DNA of 64,000 bases from Paenibacillus borealis (GTDB lineage Bacteria > Bacillota > Bacilli > Paenibacillales > Paenibacillaceae): assembly GCF_000758665.1 (NCBI RefSeq), contig NZ_CP009285.1, positions 5,456,001-5,520,000 of the forward strand, read 5' to 3'. Under the pieces are notes generated by a model. The model saw nothing but the letters and a program-made list of their open reading frames with translations. It was not told the DNA's origin and made no database searches. A program made the position numbers and the translations under genes. Shown here piece by piece: positions 6,920-31,452 of the stretch (the first letter of the stretch is position 1; every line of letters begins with the position of its first letter).

Positions 6920-7252
6920 TTAAATTTGCTTCAAAACGTACAATTTATTACCGTCTTTGAACGTAATCAATGATCCATTATTTTCTATTGATTGTATGTT
7001 GTCGATTTTCGATTCCTGGACAAGCGCCGTTCGTCCGACCAAGACAAAACCTTCACCTTTTAGAGATTCGGCTGCTTCCGCTAGAATATCCAAGTCCTGA
7101 TAAGATCCGGTGGTAGTATGATACGCGAGTACTGATTGTGAATGTTCTGTCCGTTGCCATTTATCAATATAATTAACGTCCTTAAGATCAACGTCCTTCC
7201 ATTCAAATATATCCTTCTTCTTATGCTGTAGCCTCTTCATTCGTCTTATCAT
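6920..7252 (-). CDS. Solitary LytTR-like DNA-binding protein
   Basis: 110 residues. The pattern DVNYIDKWQR..., a central TTGSYQDLDILAEAAESL helix and then FVLVGRTALVQESKIDNIQS followed by SLITFKDGNKLYVLK matches the LytTR domain (F-x-R-V-H-R-S-x-x-V-N-x-x-x-I and the final dG..l.vs strand). There is no receiver domain. ATG at 7252 is preceded by GAGGAGATACAT. It is divergent from the unknown gene at 7354 and lies next to the integrase. The LytTR call is made by eye and is moderately confident; the target is unknown. Confidence 0.55.
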   Translation of the reverse strand: MIRRMKRLQHKKKDIFEWKDVDLKDVNYIDKWQRTEHSQSVLAYHTTTGSYQDLDILAEAAESLKGEGFVLVGRTALVQESKIDNIQSIENNGSLITFKDGNKLYVLKQI

Positions 7253-7808: not shown

Positions 7809-9023
7809 ATGGCCTACACAAAGAAAATACCCGCAAACAATAAACAAGGATACAAATGGCTTTGTGTTATGGAGGGTCCTCCCGATCCTGCCAGTGGGGT
7901 CCGCCGGCAAATTTCTCGTAGAGCTGATACCAAGACGGAAGCCACTAACCGTGCTCAAGCAGTCGTAGATCAGCTGACAGCTGGGTTCGATTTAAAAAAG
8001 GCAAAACGTACTTCATTCGAAGATGCTGCCAATGCCTGGGTTGAGGTATACTCTGCCACAGACGTCAAAGCCAGCTCTATACGCCTGCGGAAAAAGACGT
8101 TACAGGTATTGCTTACGAAAATCTCAAAGATCAATATAGACCGGGTAACGCATACTCAATATCAGAAGGCACTCAATGAACTATTCAAAGAAAATGCCTA
8201 TTCGAATTCTTATATCCGAAGTATCCATATTTGTGCCAATATGATTTTTGAATGGGCTATTAAAAATAATCTCCGTGGCGATAATCCCTGTAAAGGAATT
8301 ACCATGCCCAAAAATAAGGTTACTGTCGAAGATTTGGAGAATGGAAACATTTCGGAGAAATATTTAGAACGGGATGAGCTACAAGAATTTCTGGGCGAAG
8401 TTATAAAGCATGGATTATGGGGAGATACGGAAATGTTCTACATGCTTACCTATAGTGGTATGCGTCCCGGGGAGATGTGCGCATTGTATGAAGAGGATTT
8501 GAAGTTGAAAGAAAAAGATGTTCGCATCACCAAAACCATTTACTATCCTAATAATAAAAATGAACATTTTCAAATCACACCGCCTAAGACTCCGGGTTCT
8601 GTGCGCAGATTTGATTTGGATGACTTGATTATAGATATGATGCAAAAATATATCTTAGTAAAAAAAGAACGCCAGGCCCGATACAAGAAACTGCATGATG
8701 ATTTTTATGAATCCAAGTTCTTGTTTGCCAAAGAGAACGGTCGTCCTATTTCACAGAAGCTTTTGTTGGAGCGTATGAATCGTATTCTTAAAAGAACCAC
8801 CATCACAAAAAAGGCCACCCCGCATATCTTCCGGCACACTCATGTGAGTTTTTTGGCGGAAGCCGGGGTGGACCTACCAACGATCATGCAGCGAGTAGGT
8901 CATGACGATTCTAAGACAACCTTGAAAGTATATACTCATGTAACCGAGATGATGAAAAAAAATTCTTCTCAGAAAAGACGGATTCACTTCAACAACATCC
9001 TAAATCCAGAGAATTTGCAGTAA
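7809..9023 (+). CDS. int: Tyrosine site-specific recombinase (integrase)
   Basis: 404 residues. An N-terminal arm-binding domain (about 10-60) is followed by a SAM-like core-binding domain (about 70-170) and the catalytic domain. Visible catalytic residues are R219 in SGMRPGEMCAL, probable K260 in TPPKTPGS, H339 and R342 in HIFRHTHVS, H365 in QRVGHDDS and Y375 in LKVYTHV, so the active site is complete. GAGGAG precedes ATG 7809. It is the last gene of the element, facing the chromosomal spoIIM region, so the attachment site probably lies in 9024-9096 or just beside it. No tRNA target is visible. Confidence 0.93.
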   Translation: MAYTKKIPANNKQGYKWLCVMEGPPDPASGVRRQISRRADTKTEATNRAQAVVDQLTAGFDLKKAKRTSFEDAANAWVEVYSATDVKASSIRLRKKTLQVLLTKISKINIDRVTHTQYQKALNELFKENAYSNSYIRSIHICANMIFEWAIKNNLRGDNPCKGITMPKNKVTVEDLENGNISEKYLERDELQEFLGEVIKHGLWGDTEMFYMLTYSGMRPGEMCALYEEDLKLKEKDVRITKTIYYPNNKNEHFQITPPKTPGSVRRFDLDDLIIDMMQKYILVKKERQARYKKLHDDFYESKFLFAKENGRPISQKLLLERMNRILKRTTITKKATPHIFRHTHVSFLAEAGVDLPTIMQRVGHDDSKTTLKVYTHVTEMMKKNSSQKRRIHFNNILNPENLQ

Positions 9024-25609: not shown

Positions 25610-25864
25610 TTAATGAATAGCCTTCAGTGCTCTGTGCTCATCTTCCTTACGGACATACAGATCATGCTGAACCGTAGCACTCCCTCCATAATTAGCACGC
25701 TGGGCGGTTGCTTTCATTCCGCCGTTAATTCTCGAGCGGTGCCGTACTCCTGCCGCCGTCAAAAGACCCTTAATCTTAAAATATTGTCCCTGATCAAAAG
25801 TGGTATACACTAATGTGCGTTCTCTCGGAATGAAGAAATGCCAGATGCCTTTTAGCAAGCTCAT
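25610..25864 (-). CDS. DUF2007-like small protein
   Basis: 84 residues. The pattern LVYTTFDQGQYFKIKGLLTA followed by QHDLYVRKEDEHRALKAI resembles the DUF2007/'putative signal transducing' fold, a ferredoxin-like domain with short beta strands and a terminal helix. The first residues (LLKGIWHFFI) are hydrophobic and may be a membrane-proximal anchor. AGGAGGGGAG precedes ATG 25864. Function unknown. Confidence 0.55.
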   Translation of the reverse strand: MSLLKGIWHFFIPRERTLVYTTFDQGQYFKIKGLLTAAGVRHRSRINGGMKATAQRANYGGSATVQHDLYVRKEDEHRALKAIH

Positions 25865-25895
25865 AAGCGCTCCCCTCCTGTCTAATTACAGCACT

Positions 25896-26414
25896 TTAGT
25901 TCAAGTAACGTTCATGAAGGATCCGCAGATGATGCAGCTCATGTCCGATAATGAGGCAGGTCTGCGCTCTAACCGACATGGCTACGCCACCGAAGCTGCC
26001 AGTGCGTGTATAGGAATCCTCCGGCAGACTATCCAGCAGCGCCAGGGTGGACTCCCGGACGATCCGGTAATGCGTGATCATCTCCTCCAGCGAGAAGCGG
26101 TCGAATCCGCCAGCAGCAGCATAATCATTCTCTTCATAGCCGGGCAGCGGCGCCTGCTCTCCTCTGGCAAAACAAAGCAGACGGTAGGACATAATCCGGT
26201 CGTTATCCGTCAGATGCCCTATCATTTCTTTGATGCTCCACTTCCCTGGTGCATACCGGTATGCGCCTTGCTCCTCCGTAAGTCCGTCAAGCAGAGCCAA
26301 TACTTGCTGCGTCTGCTCTCTTAGAATGACCCTCAAATCTCCTTCCGGCGGCACCAAAGTAATATATCTGGACTGGAATTCGGTGTATTCTCCCTGCTCT
26401 GGACGCTCAATCAT
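25896..26414 (-). CDS. DinB-superfamily protein
   Basis: 172 residues, DinB/YfiT four-helix fold. Putative metal ligands appear in KEMIGHLTDNDR (His) and IIGHELHHLRILHERY (His pair) in the final helix; YAPGKWSIKEM is the typical early motif. Members are metal-dependent, often thiol transferases, but many have no known substrate. GAGAGGAG points to ATG 26414 rather than the ATG 24 nt upstream. It lies just left of the AT-rich Agr-like island and is divergent from it. Confidence 0.8.
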   Translation of the reverse strand: MIERPEQGEYTEFQSRYITLVPPEGDLRVILREQTQQVLALLDGLTEEQGAYRYAPGKWSIKEMIGHLTDNDRIMSYRLLCFARGEQAPLPGYEENDYAAAGGFDRFSLEEMITHYRIVRESTLALLDSLPEDSYTRTGSFGGVAMSVRAQTCLIIGHELHHLRILHERYLN

Positions 26415-26475
26415 GGTAAAACTCCTCTCAAAATACATTTTTTAAGAAATATTTGCCGGAAAGTGTCAAAACCTG

Positions 26476-26504
26476 TTGTTGCATTTTATCCTATTATGTA
26501 TAAT
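26476..26504 (+). promoter_or_regulatory. Sigma-A-type promoter of the Agr-like cassette
   Basis: TTGTTG (26476-26481), exactly 17 nt, TATAAT (26499-26504), 43 nt before the first ATG. It could drive all four genes. I could not find a convincing LytTR direct-repeat box next to it. Confidence 0.65.
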
Positions 26505-26546
26505 ATCACCAGGATGAATAGTTAATCTATCTTTGGGAGTGTAGGC

Positions 26547-27215
26547 ATGCTGGATTTTGTGCTATATATGGTATTTTCCATACTTGAGACATCTGCAATG
26601 TTTTATTTAGCCTTCAAGGTTTTTAAGATTGACTTGTATCCCAAAGAAATGTTATTTGCTGGCGCCCTTATGGCATTTGTGTCGTATGTTCTCCGTAATG
26701 ATTATGGGCTGATACTTACCGATGTAGCTATTCAATATCTGTTAACTTTCTGCTTTTTATGGCTTTTGTTTCGAATTCATATTTTTTATGCTGCTATTAT
26801 GACAGGATTAACATATTTATCATATATGCTCATTCAATCCACATGCTATTTTCTTATGAGATTAACAGGTTTATACTCTATTGAATTTCCCTTTTTGACC
26901 GTTGGTGTTTATATTCTTCAAATGATCTCTGTCGTACTTACAATCATTATTGGTTTTAATATCGGTAAACATAGAAAAGGATTCGATTTTGTACCTGACA
27001 AACAAAACGTCAAAGTAAAAATAGCCCTTCGTGAAATCAAAATTTTCATCCTAAGTGCGCCTGCTATATTCATCGTTATATTAATGTTAATCCTAACACA
27101 AAGATATTCACAGTATTTCTTCCTGATGCCTATGCTTTATGGCATTTTGCTTTATGCCTACCTATATCTTTCATATAAAAAGGATCGAACCGACGATGAA
27201 TTTATTAGCCTATAG
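26547..27215 (+). CDS. AgrC-sensor-like multi-TM protein without a kinase domain
   Basis: 222 residues, about six or seven hydrophobic segments covering almost the whole length (FVLYMVFSILETSAMFYLAF at the start, LMPMLYGILLYAYLYL at the end), then a short charged tail KKDRTDDEFISL. Size and helix spacing resemble the N-terminal sensor half of AgrC-type histidine kinases, but the protein stops where the dimerisation and kinase domains would begin. Next come AgrB, AgrD and a LytTR protein, overlapping or closely spaced. It may be the receptor of the peptide, or a membrane inhibitor of the LytTR protein. The AgrC relation is inference. The DNA is AT-rich compared with its neighbours. Confidence 0.6.
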   Translation: MLDFVLYMVFSILETSAMFYLAFKVFKIDLYPKEMLFAGALMAFVSYVLRNDYGLILTDVAIQYLLTFCFLWLLFRIHIFYAAIMTGLTYLSYMLIQSTCYFLMRLTGLYSIEFPFLTVGVYILQMISVVLTIIIGFNIGKHRKGFDFVPDKQNVKVKIALREIKIFILSAPAIFIVILMLILTQRYSQYFFLMPMLYGILLYAYLYLSYKKDRTDDEFISL

Positions 27216-27720
27216 AATTGCAAGGGCAATAAAGAATGCAAATCCTGAGGAAACCCATTCTGTCGAAGTCATGCAGTATTCACTAGGCATTATTATAAAC
27301 ACACTGTTAATCATAGTTGGCACAGCTGTAATAGGTTTTATTTCAGGATCATTTGCTGAATGCATGACTTTTCTACTGTGTTTCTCGATATTACGCCTCA
27401 CTTCTGGCGGTTTTCATTTAAAAACAGCTATGGCTTGTAATATTGTTACTATTTTATTAAGCACCTTACTGCCCTCTTTAATTACCTTTTCAGATTCAAC
27501 CCTTTGGATTGCTAACATAATCAGTTTGATCATTATTATTATATTTGCTCCAAACCCGGACAAAAACGCTAGAATTCCCACTTCTATATATCCTTTATTG
27601 AAGTTGGTTTCTATATTAATGATTTCCTCTAATTTCTTCCTTCAATCAGCTGTAATCGGATTGGCATTTACAGTCCAATCATTAACAGTAATTCCTTGGA
27701 CAAGGAGGAGAATACATTGA
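27196..27720 (+). CDS. agrB: AgrB-family peptide-processing protease
   Basis: 174 residues. The catalytic motif LRLTSGGFHLKTAMAC has H74 and C81 seven residues apart, exactly as H77/C84 of S. aureus AgrB; hydrophobic helices follow to the C-terminus. AgrB cuts the AgrD precursor on its C-terminal side and cyclises it. ATG 27196 lies inside the end of the previous gene (20-nt overlap) behind AAAAGGAT. Its TGA overlaps the TTG of agrD. The short C-terminal tail WTRRRIH is basic. Confidence 0.85.
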   Translation: MNLLAYRIARAIKNANPEETHSVEVMQYSLGIIINTLLIIVGTAVIGFISGSFAECMTFLLCFSILRLTSGGFHLKTAMACNIVTILLSTLLPSLITFSDSTLWIANIISLIIIIIFAPNPDKNARIPTSIYPLLKLVSILMISSNFFLQSAVIGLAFTVQSLTVIPWTRRRIH

Positions 27721-27836
27721 AAAAAGCTATCGCTAAACAAGTTTCAGCCGCTCTTGCCGGATCTGCACGTTTCTTTGTTTCAATTATGAAGCCAGCCTTC
27801 CATAGCCCAGAAGCACCCAAAGAATTGCGCAAGTAA
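27717..27836 (+). CDS. agrD: AgrD-like autoinducer precursor lacking cysteine
   Basis: 39 residues, too short for automatic calling. A basic amphipathic leader MKKAIAKQVSAALAGSARFF is followed by VSIMKPAFH and the acidic/proline tail SPEAPKELRK, whose PKEL matches the conserved AgrD C-terminus. There is no Cys; Ser22 is the only good ring nucleophile, so the product would be a lactone (as in the Ser-type peptides of some staphylococci) or linear. TTG start at 27717, supported by AAGGAGGAG and overlapping the agrB stop. Confidence 0.75.
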   Translation: MKKAIAKQVSAALAGSARFFVSIMKPAFHSPEAPKELRK

Positions 27837-27857
27837 TCAAACAAGGATGGGGAAAAC

Positions 27858-28190
27858 ATGCGTGTCTTACTAAACGACGGCTCCTCCCGGAGTATCCGGG
27901 AGGAGGATATATTGTATTTCTCAAACCATAAGAATACAATATTCGTCCATACGAAAGAAGGCGAATTTGTTCTCCCCACCACTCTTTCCGATTTATACGC
28001 AGCATACGGGAGTACCGGCTTTGAACGTCTTGACCGCAGTAATGTAGTCAACATCGGCAATATTGACGGTTATGATCCGGAACGGAAGATCGTTCTGTTC
28101 AATCAAGGAGAACAATTTGCTACCGTATCAGAATCCAATGAAGCACGCATTAGAAGATTTTTAGCCTCTCGGAAGAATGATACACCTTAA
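27858..28190 (+). CDS. Stand-alone LytTR DNA-binding regulator
   Basis: 110 residues, a LytTR domain only: EEDILYFSNHKNTIFVHTKE, VLPTTLSDLYAAYGSTGFER, LDRSNVVNIGNIDGYDPERK and a final strand with a charged tail. GFERLDRSNVVN corresponds to the F-x-R-x-H-R-S-x-x-V-N signature with D in place of the usual H. No receiver domain or phospho-acceptor is present, so control must be through expression or protein contact, not phosphorylation. AAGGATGGGG precedes the ATG. It is the last gene of the Agr-like cassette, before a strong terminator. Confidence 0.8.
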   Translation: MRVLLNDGSSRSIREEDILYFSNHKNTIFVHTKEGEFVLPTTLSDLYAAYGSTGFERLDRSNVVNIGNIDGYDPERKIVLFNQGEQFATVSESNEARIRRFLASRKNDTP

Positions 28191-28216
28191 ACACAGAAGA
28201 ATAGAAACATCCCCAC

Positions 28217-28249
28217 TTCCCGGTGCCCAATGGCTACCGGGATTTTTTT
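28217..28249 (+). terminator. Terminator of the Agr-like cassette
   Basis: TCCCGGT...ACCGGGA stem followed by TTTTTTT at 28243-28249. Confidence 0.85.
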
Positions 28250-28452
28250 CCCTCCGATAAATTCAATTCAAATTCTCATTCGAACCAAAGTCAATCATTA
28301 TCCCATATTACCCATCTTTTGTAAAGGTGAATTCAGAGGGCGAATGACAGCAGACGGATTAGCTTCCAAATGGTACCATTTTAATAGATTCGCAAATATA
28401 TGAAACATTTTACTTATTCGCTCGCACTCTCAACTACAGATGGAGGAAACTA

Positions 28453-28632
28453 ATGGAATATTATTTTCATCCTTCTCCGCGCCCCTCATCACTTGAGCTA
28501 TTGTCTGACGAACAATTAATTAACATCTATGAATTGGCGCTGGAAGCCAAAGCTTCAGCTGATTTTGTCGACATCATCAGAAATGTCCTCTCTGGCCGAA
28601 ATCTGTTAGGCTCAGATCATTATGATGCCTAA
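28453..28632 (+). CDS. sda: Sda-like inhibitor of sporulation histidine kinases
   Basis: 59 residues, translated directly. After a 17-residue N-terminal extension, LSDEQLINIYELALEAKASA then DFVDIIRNVLSGRNL matches B. subtilis Sda ([35 protein letters not shown]). Sda binds the DHp domain of KinA and blocks phosphorelay start when replication is disturbed. GGAGG lies 6 nt before ATG 28453. The extension is absent from the 46-residue B. subtilis protein. A TTATCCCATA sequence at about 28298 is only a poor match to the DnaA boxes that control sda in Bacillus. Confidence 0.8.
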   Translation: MEYYFHPSPRPSSLELLSDEQLINIYELALEAKASADFVDIIRNVLSGRNLLGSDHYDA

Positions 28633-28674
28633 TCCCTATTAATAAGCCCTCCTATACAGCCATCCTGATCATTG

Positions 28675-28717
28675 GTATATTGACCCGGCCTGCCGGGCAA
28701 TATACTTTTTTGTCATT
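28675..28717 (+). terminator. Terminator of sda
   Basis: GTATATTG-a-CCCGGC pairs with GCCGGG-CAATATAC, followed by TTTTTTG. Confidence 0.8.
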
Positions 28718-28824
28718 TTATTATAATTAAATTTTAATTTTTTAATTTCAATTTCAATATCTTTCCTATATAATATTCTTTGTGTTTGTTACCTAACTTA
28801 ACAACAGAAGGGATGAAAGATTGC

Positions 28825-31452
28825 ATGAGGCATAATTTTCAGCACTTATTGCACAAAACCGTTCTATCTTCACTCGTAATTTCTATGACCGCATTGCCAT
28901 TCAGTGGAATGTTCGCGGCAGCTGCGCCGGCTGACTCCACAATGAAGCTGCGCATCATGGAGACTACAGATATCCACACCAACCTGCTCCCGTATGACTA
29001 TTACAAGAGTGCCACATCCCTTACCGTCGGACTGGCCCGTACCGCGAACCTGGTGAAGGAAGCCCGCCAAGAGGCTGGCAATACGCTGCTGGTAGATAAC
29101 GGGGACCTTATCCAGGGTACACCTCTAGGAACTTACAAAGCGCTTGTGAACCCTATTAAGGGCACTGAAATTCACCCTGTCTATAAAGCGATGAACCTGA
29201 TGGGGTACGATGTGGCCACCTTCGGTAATCATGAATTCAACTATGGTCTGGATTATCTGGATCAGGCGATCAAGGGTGCCAATTTCCCTTATATTAACGC
29301 CAATGTATATGTAGATGACAAAGACAGCAATCCGGATAACGATGTTAACAAATACAGCCCTTATCAGATTATTACTAAATCGTATAAAGATGAAGCCGGC
29401 AACGTGCAGACACTGAAGATTGGTGTGCTCGGGCTTGTAACTCCGCAAATTACCGAATGGGACAAGAGCAATCTGGAAGGCAAAGTTATCACTAAGGATA
29501 TCGTAACCACTGCCGAGAAATTCATCCCGCAGATGCGCGCAGCCGGTGCGGATCTGATTATCGCCATGACCCACTCCGGATTTAACGGCAGCGCCGAAGC
29601 TTACGTGAAGGCAGAGGATGCTATTTTCCCGCTGAGCAAGGTTGCCGGTATTGATGCAATTACCTTCTCTCATACGCATAAAGTATTCCCTGCAGCAGAT
29701 GAGAAGTCGCTGGATGCCCTCTTCAAGGATGCTTCCGGCAAAGTATTGCCTGGCGTCGACAATGCCAAAGGAACCATCAACGGTGTCCCTGCGGTACAGG
29801 CCGGCTACGGCGGCAGCAACCTGGGTCTGATCGATCTGACTCTGGAAAAAACAGACGGCAAGTGGAAGGTCGCTTCCTCGCAATCCTCCACCAAAGCCAT
29901 CTATGATGCCGTTGCCAAAAAATCTACGGTAGACGTGGATCAGGCCATTGTGGATGCCGTGCAGGCCGATCATGAAGCAACGATTGCCTATGCGAACAGT
30001 CCAATTGGTACAACTACTGCACCGATCTACAGCTACTTCGGCCTGGTTCAGGATGATCCATCCGTACAGATCGTTACCACTGCGCAGAAGCAGTATGTGG
30101 AGAATTACATCAAAGCTAATCTTCCGCAATATGCAGACATCCCGGTCCTGTCCGTCGGCGCTCCATTCAAGGCCGGACGTAACGGCCCGGAAGAATATAC
30201 AGACATCGCCCAGGGACCACTGGCCATTAAGAGCGCAGGGGATCTGTACCTGTATGACAATACGCTGAAAGCGATTCTGGTGAAGGGCTCTGTCGTCAAA
30301 GAATGGCTGGAAATGTCCGCCGGCAAATTCAATCAGATCGATCCGTCCTCAACAGAAGCGCAGGAGCTGCTCAATTCCTCCTTCGCGGTCTACAACTTCG
30401 ATGTAATCGATGGTGTAACTTATCAGGTAGATGTTACGAAACCAGCCAAATACAAACCGGATGGCACTGTGAATGATGCCTCCTCCAGCCGGATTATCAA
30501 TTTGCAATATAACGGCAAAGCGATTGATCCGAATCAGGATTTCATCATGGCAACCAATAACTACCGCGCAAGCGGCGGCGGCAACTTCCCTGGAGTCAAA
30601 GGCAGCAAATACATCATCGACTCACCGGATGAGAACCGCCAGATCCTGATGGATTATATCACCGCCAGCAAAACCATTAATCCGTCTGCCGACAACAACT
30701 GGTCGATCGCACCCATCTCCGGGAATGTGAAGGTAACCTTCACCTCCTCGCCAAAAGCAGAGACCTATGCCAAAACGACGGACAACATTGCTTATACAGG
30801 TCAAGTGGATGAAAAAGGCTTCGGCGTCTTCACTCTTGACGTGAGTAAAGCTGTAACTCCTTCCCTGCCGGCTGCCGATCCGGTTACGGAACAGCCTGCC
30901 GTTGCGGTATTCAAGGATGTTCCCGTGTCACACTGGGCTGCAGGTTACATCAACAGTCTCGCTGCGGATAAGATCATCTCCGGCAAAACAGCCGATACTT
31001 TTGATCCAAACGGCCTGGTAACCCGTGCTGAATTCGCCAGCTTGCTGACCAAAGCCTTGAAGCTGCAAGTCAGCGTATCTCCAGCCTTCAAAGATGTACC
31101 CGCAGCCGCCTGGTATGCAGGTGCCGTTGCAGCAGCTCATGAGAACAAGCTGGTTAGCGGTGTAACCGCCGATACCTTCGCACCTAATGCCTCCATCACC
31201 CGTGAACAGATGGCGGTAATGGTGAAGCAGGGGCTTGATCTCCGTGCCGGTAAAATCTTGACCGCCATCACAGCTGTCAGCTTCAGCGATTCGGCTTCCA
31301 TCAGCGCCTGGGCGACATCTGCTGTAGCAGTTACTGTCGATAAGAAAATCATCGCCGGACGCACAGATGGCAGCTTCGCCCCTAAGGCTACTGCCACCCG
31401 TGCTGAAGCCGCCAAAGTAATCTCCAGCCTGTTGTTTGCTTCTGTAGAGTAG
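28825..31452 (+). CDS. SLH-anchored 2',3'-cyclic-nucleotide phosphodiesterase / 3'-nucleotidase
   Basis: 875 residues, cell-surface enzyme. Signal peptide to about residue 35 (basic start, hydrophobic core, AAAAPA). Metallophosphoesterase domain with TTDIHTNLLPYDYY, LLVDNGDLIQGTPLG, TFGNHEFNYGLDY and THSGFNG; the DxHTN form is typical of CpdB. A 5'-nucleotidase C-terminal domain follows (NNYRASGGGNFPG for base stacking). Three SLH domains (FKDVPVSHWAAGYI, FKDVPAAAWYAGAV, FSDSASISAWATSA) would tether it to secondary cell-wall polymer. ATG 28825 is preferred; an earlier TTG at 28780 has no ribosome-binding site. Confidence 0.9.
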   Translation: MRHNFQHLLHKTVLSSLVISMTALPFSGMFAAAAPADSTMKLRIMETTDIHTNLLPYDYYKSATSLTVGLARTANLVKEARQEAGNTLLVDNGDLIQGTPLGTYKALVNPIKGTEIHPVYKAMNLMGYDVATFGNHEFNYGLDYLDQAIKGANFPYINANVYVDDKDSNPDNDVNKYSPYQIITKSYKDEAGNVQTLKIGVLGLVTPQITEWDKSNLEGKVITKDIVTTAEKFIPQMRAAGADLIIAMTHSGFNGSAEAYVKAEDAIFPLSKVAGIDAITFSHTHKVFPAADEKSLDALFKDASGKVLPGVDNAKGTINGVPAVQAGYGGSNLGLIDLTLEKTDGKWKVASSQSSTKAIYDAVAKKSTVDVDQAIVDAVQADHEATIAYANSPIGTTTAPIYSYFGLVQDDPSVQIVTTAQKQYVENYIKANLPQYADIPVLSVGAPFKAGRNGPEEYTDIAQGPLAIKSAGDLYLYDNTLKAILVKGSVVKEWLEMSAGKFNQIDPSSTEAQELLNSSFAVYNFDVIDGVTYQVDVTKPAKYKPDGTVNDASSSRIINLQYNGKAIDPNQDFIMATNNYRASGGGNFPGVKGSKYIIDSPDENRQILMDYITASKTINPSADNNWSIAPISGNVKVTFTSSPKAETYAKTTDNIAYTGQVDEKGFGVFTLDVSKAVTPSLPAADPVTEQPAVAVFKDVPVSHWAAGYINSLAADKIISGKTADTFDPNGLVTRAEFASLLTKALKLQVSVSPAFKDVPAAAWYAGAVAAAHENKLVSGVTADTFAPNASITREQMAVMVKQGLDLRAGKILTAITAVSFSDSASISAWATSAVAVTVDKKIIAGRTDGSFAPKATATRAEAAKVISSLLFASVE

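Follow-up and report, generated by a model that had tools for sequence, protein, structure and literature searches.

Agr circuits, in the accounts consulted here, pass their peptide signal on by phosphate, from AgrC to AgrA. The cassette examined here lies in a 64,000-nucleotide stretch of Paenibacillus borealis DNA (hereafter the window; positions 5456001-5520000 of the single 8.16-Mb contig that was the genome searched) and encodes neither a kinase nor a receiver. How could a peptide signal be read and passed on from such a locus?

A conserved agr cassette without kinase or receiver

Four packed genes on the + strand make up the cassette: a membrane protein of 222 aa (26547..27215), the peptidase/cyclase AgrB (27196..27720, 174 aa; Pfam AgrB 79.2 bits, cut-off 23) with His74 and Cys81 present, an AgrD-like pro-peptide of 39 aa (27717..27836) that has a TTG start behind AGGAGG and is recognised by its position and a C-terminal HSPEAPKEL tail in register, and a LytTR DNA-binding protein of 110 aa (27858..28190; Pfam LytTR 52.3 bits) with no match to a receiver. 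All four ORFs, their order and their boundaries agree with the first-pass annotation, as do the AgrB residues, the 39-residue peptide and the receiver-less LytTR domain that it had named. The membrane-protein gene shares 20 bases with the AgrB gene, which in turn shares 4 with that of AgrD, and the gap from AgrD to LytTR is 21 bases; given these overlaps and the short gap, translation of the four genes is likely coupled. The AT-rich island that had been described was likewise recovered, with a GC content of 36.5% against 51.1% for the 64-kb window (as low in 2 of 312 windows of equal length). AT-richness is concentrated in the membrane-protein (32.6% GC) and AgrB (34.5%) genes and weaker in those of AgrD (44.2%) and LytTR (43.5%). 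The bounding signals also held: the promoter TTGTTG-17-TATAAT (26474..26504, +) sits in a block conserved in window-type loci, and a stem-loop with a T-run forms an intrinsic terminator after lytTR (~28218..28249, +; -17.4 kcal/mol, z -4.3).

The same annotation had reported both phosphorelay modules missing and no kinase nearby, which is borne out: none of the 18 HATPase_c_5 matches in the genome lies at either of its cassettes. Compared with AgrC, a sensor joined to a histidine kinase, the locus has the sensor homology and lacks the kinase; compared with AgrA, a receiver plus LytTR, it has LytTR alone. Only two AgrB matches were found in the genome, and the second (C1:3517002) belongs to a cassette of identical gene order, with a 208-aa membrane protein, a 178-aa AgrB, a 47-aa AgrD and a 123-aa LytTR. 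Homology is remote both between the two membrane proteins (24% in alignment A1, BLAST E 0.003) and between the two LytTR proteins (E 3e-4), and the two cassettes represent old diversity and no recent duplication. A further solitary LytTR-like ORF of 110 aa lies elsewhere in the window (6920-7252, - strand; Pfam LytTR 34.2 bits in its frame), near an ORF that by eye resembles a phage-type integrase (7809-9023).

We then surveyed the genus, in which AgrB is present in 85 of 100 genomes searched. From among the matches listed, 120 AgrB loci of 77 genomes were fetched as stretches of up to 7.5 kb, excluding the window's own cassette, and their ORFs were labelled with iterated profiles made from the loci available at that stage. 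The membrane protein lies directly upstream of AgrB in 100 of the 120 loci, and a short LytTR (67-153 aa) follows downstream in 89, so the four-gene order without a kinase recurs in 89 of the 120 fetched loci and in 65 of the 77 genomes; 50 of these 65 have no sampled locus without the membrane protein. Among the 20 loci lacking it, 19 have a GHKL kinase and a LytTR regulator of 244-276 aa, and L055 has neither. Two ORFs were left unmended: the membrane protein of L080, which is in two pieces (67 + 176 aa), and the 67-aa short LytTR of L085, which contains an unknown base. A single membrane-protein locus out of 100 (L106) has a kinase/regulator pair in reach, on the opposite strand and 2.7-3.5 kb off. 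LytTR is not obligatory, since 11 of the 100 membrane-protein loci have no short LytTR: at ten, LytTR was not detected within reach of the fetched stretch, and at L170 the sole LytTR protein is 238 aa long and ~2 kb away (downstream ORFs were inspected for 9 of the 11). One locus, L110 (G024), holds a tandem pair of complete membrane protein-AgrB-LytTR cassettes.

Chance or an annotation artefact is ruled out by this survey. So is loss of the kinase by a local frameshift in this strain, which the first-pass annotation had named as a refutation, because not one of the 100 surveyed membrane-protein ORFs runs into a kinase. Its other potential refutation, a partner AgrC/AgrA elsewhere in the genome, was sought as well: two GHKL-kinase/LytTR-response-regulator pairs exist, neither adjoining agrBD. 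One adjoins an AraC/Cache regulator and a beta-lactamase-fold protein and the other an ABC transporter, and it is unlikely that these distant pairs serve AgrBD in trans. The kinase-less cassette is real and conserved, and no local accident; the genus survey proposed in the first-pass annotation came out in favour of its interpretation, which is supported.

The membrane protein and AgrC-type sensors

The multi-TM protein of the first-pass annotation is predicted by AlphaFold2 to contain seven helices (mean pLDDT 88.9). Neither Pfam (at E 1) nor NCBIfam (at E 0.1) has a family that matches it, and its closest database protein, 98% identical, is named from Paenibacillus phytohabitans. Within the order, the membrane-protein profile has matches in 192 of 296 genomes, spread over 35 of 48 genera. 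Across 398 genomes of the phylum, profile A2 (75 membrane-protein sequences) matches 27, including 23 that do not belong to the order, at weak to moderate E-values of 3e-13 to 6e-4. For 24 of the 27 matches outside the order, loci of 2.4-3.6 kb were available; an AgrB ORF is present in 20, and the remaining four have a GHKL kinase, which is fused to the matching region in L208 and L218 and adjacent in L209 and L219. The presence of AgrB or a GHKL kinase at 24 of 24 outside loci is a strong specificity control for a membrane-helix profile, and the profile behaves as agr-specific.

L208 and L218 encode 456-aa proteins in which kinase domains (SPOB_a and GHKL by Pfam in L208) stand behind the matching region, and a LytTR protein of 236 aa comes next. 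Homologs of the L208 sensor numbered three, insufficient for a profile; a relative of L208 carries the annotation of a GHKL protein from Syntrophomonas. Split sensor/kinase loci occur in other Bacillota (L241, L242, L245). In L241 and L242, a sensor piece of 166-167 aa, cut after ~5 helices, is followed by a GHKL kinase, AgrB and a LytTR protein, and the kinase (282-304 aa) starts with two hydrophobic segments by plain hydropathy count. Two database proteins, P0060 and P0061, fuse the membrane protein to AgrB. The comparison with AgrC N-terminal domains suggested in the first-pass annotation came out in its favour by way of fused and split kinases, although hhalign of the membrane protein directly with Paenibacillus AgrC sensors was weak, with a local probability of 14% one way and 4% the other. 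The homology argument therefore rests on the fused and split kinases. That the membrane protein is homologous to the sensing half of an AgrC-type kinase is well supported, and we read the forms as one sensor type, fused to its kinase, split from it or, as here, complete in seven helices without it. The membrane protein is accordingly proposed to be a kinase-less AgrC-type peptide receptor and is called the receptor below. Another family of the order has receptor paralogs in arrays that surround a single AgrB gene and a single LytTR gene, with seven receptor-profile ORF matches in L253 (G102) and four in L269 (G110); each of these two genomes has at least 10 receptor-profile matches (10 candidates scored).

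The peptide and its co-diversification with the proposed receptor and AgrB

The AgrB patterns GGxH and H-x6-C are present in all 58 window-type and all 42 other membrane-protein loci. Peptides were aligned on their C-terminal PxEL, and those passing the tail pattern were scored, which left 7 of 20 classical and 6 of 42 other membrane-protein loci unscored. At position -5, classical loci have Cys (13 of 13) and other membrane-protein loci Ser (34) or Cys (2) in 36 peptides, whereas the window-type class has Met or Leu in 53 of 60 rows, one of which is a spurious L097 ORF, with one Cys and one Ser. The window AgrD itself has Met at -5 and thus no Cys or Ser ring nucleophile there, while the second-cassette AgrD has Ser; NCBIfam TIGR04223 matches the latter (37.9 bits, cut-off 19) and does not match the window AgrD at E 0.1. 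The L110 peptide has Cys at -5.

Two other positions of the window-type peptides are nearly invariant in the genus: Ser at -13 in 58 of 60 rows, and Lys at -4 in 59, the exception being the spurious ORF. Among 20 further loci from other genera of the order, 12 carry a window-type peptide, with Cys at -13 in 11 (three genera) and Ser in one, and Lys at -4 in all 12. An exchange of Ser for Cys is expected of a ring nucleophile, and we therefore predict a 13-residue ring with the nucleophile at -13. With the cleavage site taken from the register with classical peptides, the predicted cyclised segment is SARFFVSIMKPAF (27762..27800, +), from Ser -13 to Phe -1. In classical chemistry, AgrD Cys28 attacks the AgrB-bound thioester, yielding a 16-membered thiolactone (PMC4979651), and known agr peptides have Cys or Ser rings, of which the 9-residue ring of GBAP is given as the largest described (PMC12312760); the predicted ring, if true, exceeds it. 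A lactam through Lys -4 is a minor alternative. It would draw on the near-invariance of that lysine within and outside the genus, and by arithmetic a Lys(-4) ring has 16 atoms, like a 5-residue thiolactone, but the replacement of Ser by Cys at -13 outside the genus is what a nucleophile would show. The peptide may also be linear or cut at a different site. At nine loci with names from L256 to L264, an additional solitary LytTR gene of 133 or 153 aa is convergent to the cassette LytTR, and L266 has a 123-aa one likewise convergent.

Window-type cassettes keep one chromosomal neighbourhood. DinB lies upstream in 54 of 58 loci, a 191-aa ORF called thymidine-kinase-like (TK) by eye is present in 50, and an Sda-like gene lies downstream in the same direction in all 58; none of the three was found at the 42 other membrane-protein loci. 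Against this background we compared protein distances in the 46 window-type loci with all compared genes usable. Pairwise distances of receptor, AgrB and AgrD correlate at 0.74-0.86, whereas LytTR distances track those of neighbouring DinB (0.74), and receptor and LytTR correlate at 0.55. After regression on DinB and TK, partial correlations within the block are 0.79, 0.71 and 0.64, compared with 0.22 for receptor-LytTR and 0.23 for AgrB-LytTR (0/500 permutations each); the values for AgrD-LytTR and receptor-Sda are 0.07 (16/500) and 0.06 (43/500).

The same block is visible in DNA. In 43 locus pairs, DinB differs by <20% yet the receptor by >40%. L125 and L147 are 94.8% identical upstream, 60.4% in the receptor gene, 55.6% in AgrB, 65.5% in AgrD, 97.3% in LytTR and 95.3% downstream; identity drops past the first receptor codons and recovers to 90-100% over the final quarter of AgrD, which encodes the constant tail. 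The window and L075 follow suit at 89.5% upstream, 60.2% in both receptor and AgrB, 71.7% in AgrD and 85.8% downstream, with LytTR at 74.5% having diverged there too, whereas the window and L129 are 89-97% identical in every part. Within the 58 window-type receptors, whose sides were assigned by combining the helices of the model with the positive-inside rule, the mean majority fraction is 0.53 on the outer and 0.71 on the inner side (Mann-Whitney p 7e-7), which fits a peptide site outside and a constant partner inside. Receptor, AgrB and AgrD form one co-diversifying block like the agr specificity groups, and LytTR follows the flanks. The same kind of hypervariable block, agrB/agrD/agrC, distinguishes the S. 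aureus agr groups (PMC12312760, PMC10482373). A diversifying block whose LytTR follows the flanks points to a kinase-less peptide receptor that feeds a shared LytTR.

Signal transfer, rival readings and regulatory context

We consider it fairly probable that the cassette is an agr-type peptide quorum-sensing system without a phosphorelay, in which the seven-helix receptor signals by contact to the receiver-less LytTR. AgrB would cut and cyclise AgrD; the cyclised peptide would exit the cell and be read, presumably by binding, by the seven-helix protein, the sensor half of an AgrC-type kinase whose kinase is gone. From the inner face of the receptor, the signal would go to LytTR by protein contact. 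Per-segment conservation singles out the predicted cytosolic loop between helices 5 and 6 (26970..27026, +), with a conserved RKGFDFVPDK, as a candidate contact site. The receptor would probably hold LytTR at the membrane or release it, as the first-pass annotation had proposed, and LytTR would act on its own promoter, with putative autoregulation, and on further targets. Phosphate-free coupling of receptor to LytTR is the most economical reading. More tentatively, and at a level of confidence that falls short of the basic scheme, the cassette might represent a widespread kinase-free agr branch in which a bare LytTR is switched directly and the window-type peptide forms a ring of 13 residues, a macrolactone with Ser or a thiolactone with Cys. 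Several observations count against the contact model: the weak direct match to Paenibacillus AgrC sensors, the small receptor-LytTR partial correlation (though none of the permutations equalled it), a match of LytTR to AgrA structures only at E 0.15, the membrane-protein loci without a short LytTR, and the lack of a recognised LytTR-type direct repeat in the promoter.

In one rival reading, the membrane protein is half of a split AgrC acting in trans, with a GHKL kinase encoded elsewhere that phosphorylates another regulator while LytTR is constitutive; such splits do occur in L241, L242 and L245, and the genome has 18 HATPase_c_5 matches. At those split loci, however, the kinase gene adjoins that of the sensor and encodes the final two helices, whereas the receptor here has all seven; L106 alone has a kinase in reach, and LytTR has no receiver, which together make this reading unlikely. 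Co-diversification by itself would equally suit a specificity-bearing processing protein, so the membrane protein might be a second processing or export factor with LytTR regulated otherwise, in a role like that of MroQ, the second peptidase of the S. aureus pathway (PMC12312760); its fusion to AgrB in P0060 and P0061 would fit. Its homology to the N-terminus of GHKL kinases and the lack of a Pfam peptidase match render that role quite improbable. The peptide might also be mainly antimicrobial, with the membrane protein conferring self-immunity and LytTR controlling the cassette, as genes for a peptide, its maturation and its immunity that co-diversify fast would look alike. Here the kinase-fused form implies a sensing role of the receptor domain, and window-type cassettes keep one neighbourhood with DinB and the Sda-like gene; we regard the antimicrobial reading as very improbable.

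The preferred contact model places the cassette between described systems. It shares with classical agr (AgrBDCA, including Paenibacillus loci) the AgrB His/Cys pattern, an AgrD-like precursor with a PxEL tail, a multi-helix sensor, LytTR output and the hypervariable block of sensor, AgrB and AgrD. Unlike classical agr, it has no kinase or receiver, its receptor gene comes first where the classical sensor gene follows agrD, and the window-type peptide has no ring nucleophile at -5. LytTR regulatory systems (LRS) such as HdrRM and BrsRM (PMC6193735) also encode a receiver-less LytTR with a multi-helix membrane protein and no kinase, but their regulator gene precedes that of the membrane protein; the cassette starts with its membrane-protein gene and has agrB and agrD ahead of lytTR. 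LRS are further marked by inhibition of the regulator by the membrane protein, by positive autoregulation and by direct repeats upstream of the -35 box; an LRS-like direct repeat was not recognised upstream of the cassette (53 loci). The text of that paper does not contain the word 'Paenibacillus' and has 'agr' twice. The split-sensor loci L241, L242 and L245 resemble the cassette in a homologous sensor piece adjoining AgrB but retain a GHKL kinase, and L242 also keeps a receiver-bearing LytTR regulator. Clostridial agrBD loci without agrC and agrA, alike in what is missing, have already been published (PMC12312760). No description of a kinase-less agr cassette was found among the titles and abstract openings of the papers listed; as far as the search reaches, this real and conserved cassette is an undescribed agr signalling variant. 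If the contact model is true, an AgrC-type sensor can transmit by contact alone, without kinase or receiver, and a conserved kinase-less form joins agr to the LytTR regulatory systems. The soil and plant genus offers natural specificity groups with near-identical flanks as ready comparisons.

Regulatory DNA was profiled in window-type loci, 55 of 59 upstream regions of which fit the promoter search pattern. Across the 53 non-redundant regions, the promoter spacer is also conserved although the pattern leaves it free, and no spaced direct repeat of 21-22 nt of the LytTR/LRS type stood out. The cassette promoter is absent from the output of the consensus promoter scan, and the terminator was missed by the same signal scan because its loop is too long for it. 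In the genome, the window-type promoter pattern has a single match at up to 3 mismatches and the second-cassette pattern a single match at up to 2, against 4 for a reversed control pattern; with each pattern occurring once, the whole-genome regulon search with both found no targets beyond the cassettes. The second-cassette promoter (G000:C1:3516275-3516308) has a good -10 and no TTGACA-like -35, and AGTATACG-N16-TATATAATTA recurs upstream of many second-cassette-type relatives, which suggests that it may depend on an activator.

Within the first lytTR codons (27881-27905) lies a strong hairpin whose 3' arm has an SD-like GGAGG before an in-frame TTG. Its mean longest stem is 7.3 in 49 loci, compared with at most 5.4 in 200 synonymous-codon shuffles. 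Over 48 sequences, pairing holds in 83.5% of cells, and in 38 cells both sides are changed (0/500 shuffles each), while both-side-changed pairs (177/500) and pair types (338/500) are not above shuffles; the covariation score rises when the hairpin is slid by +1. It folds at -12 kcal/mol or better in 22 of 58 loci.

The constant Sda-like neighbour (28453..28632, +; Pfam Sda 27.4 bits) follows LytTR at a gap of 83-279 bases in 52 of 58 loci and of 342-1999 in six, and the genome has a second, stronger Sda match at another place. In B. subtilis, Sda is an inhibitor of sporulation kinases, and it is tempting to draw a putative connection between the cassette and sporulation. Behind the terminator, the Sda-like gene is preceded by a conserved leader of its own. 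No Rfam match at E 1 or better was obtained across 25800-28900, the leader included. At 28300-28452, the leader carries a conserved block TGTAAAG..AATTC..GGGCGAATGACAGGAGACGG..CCAAATGGTACCATTT, and GGTACC is present in 49 of 59 leaders.
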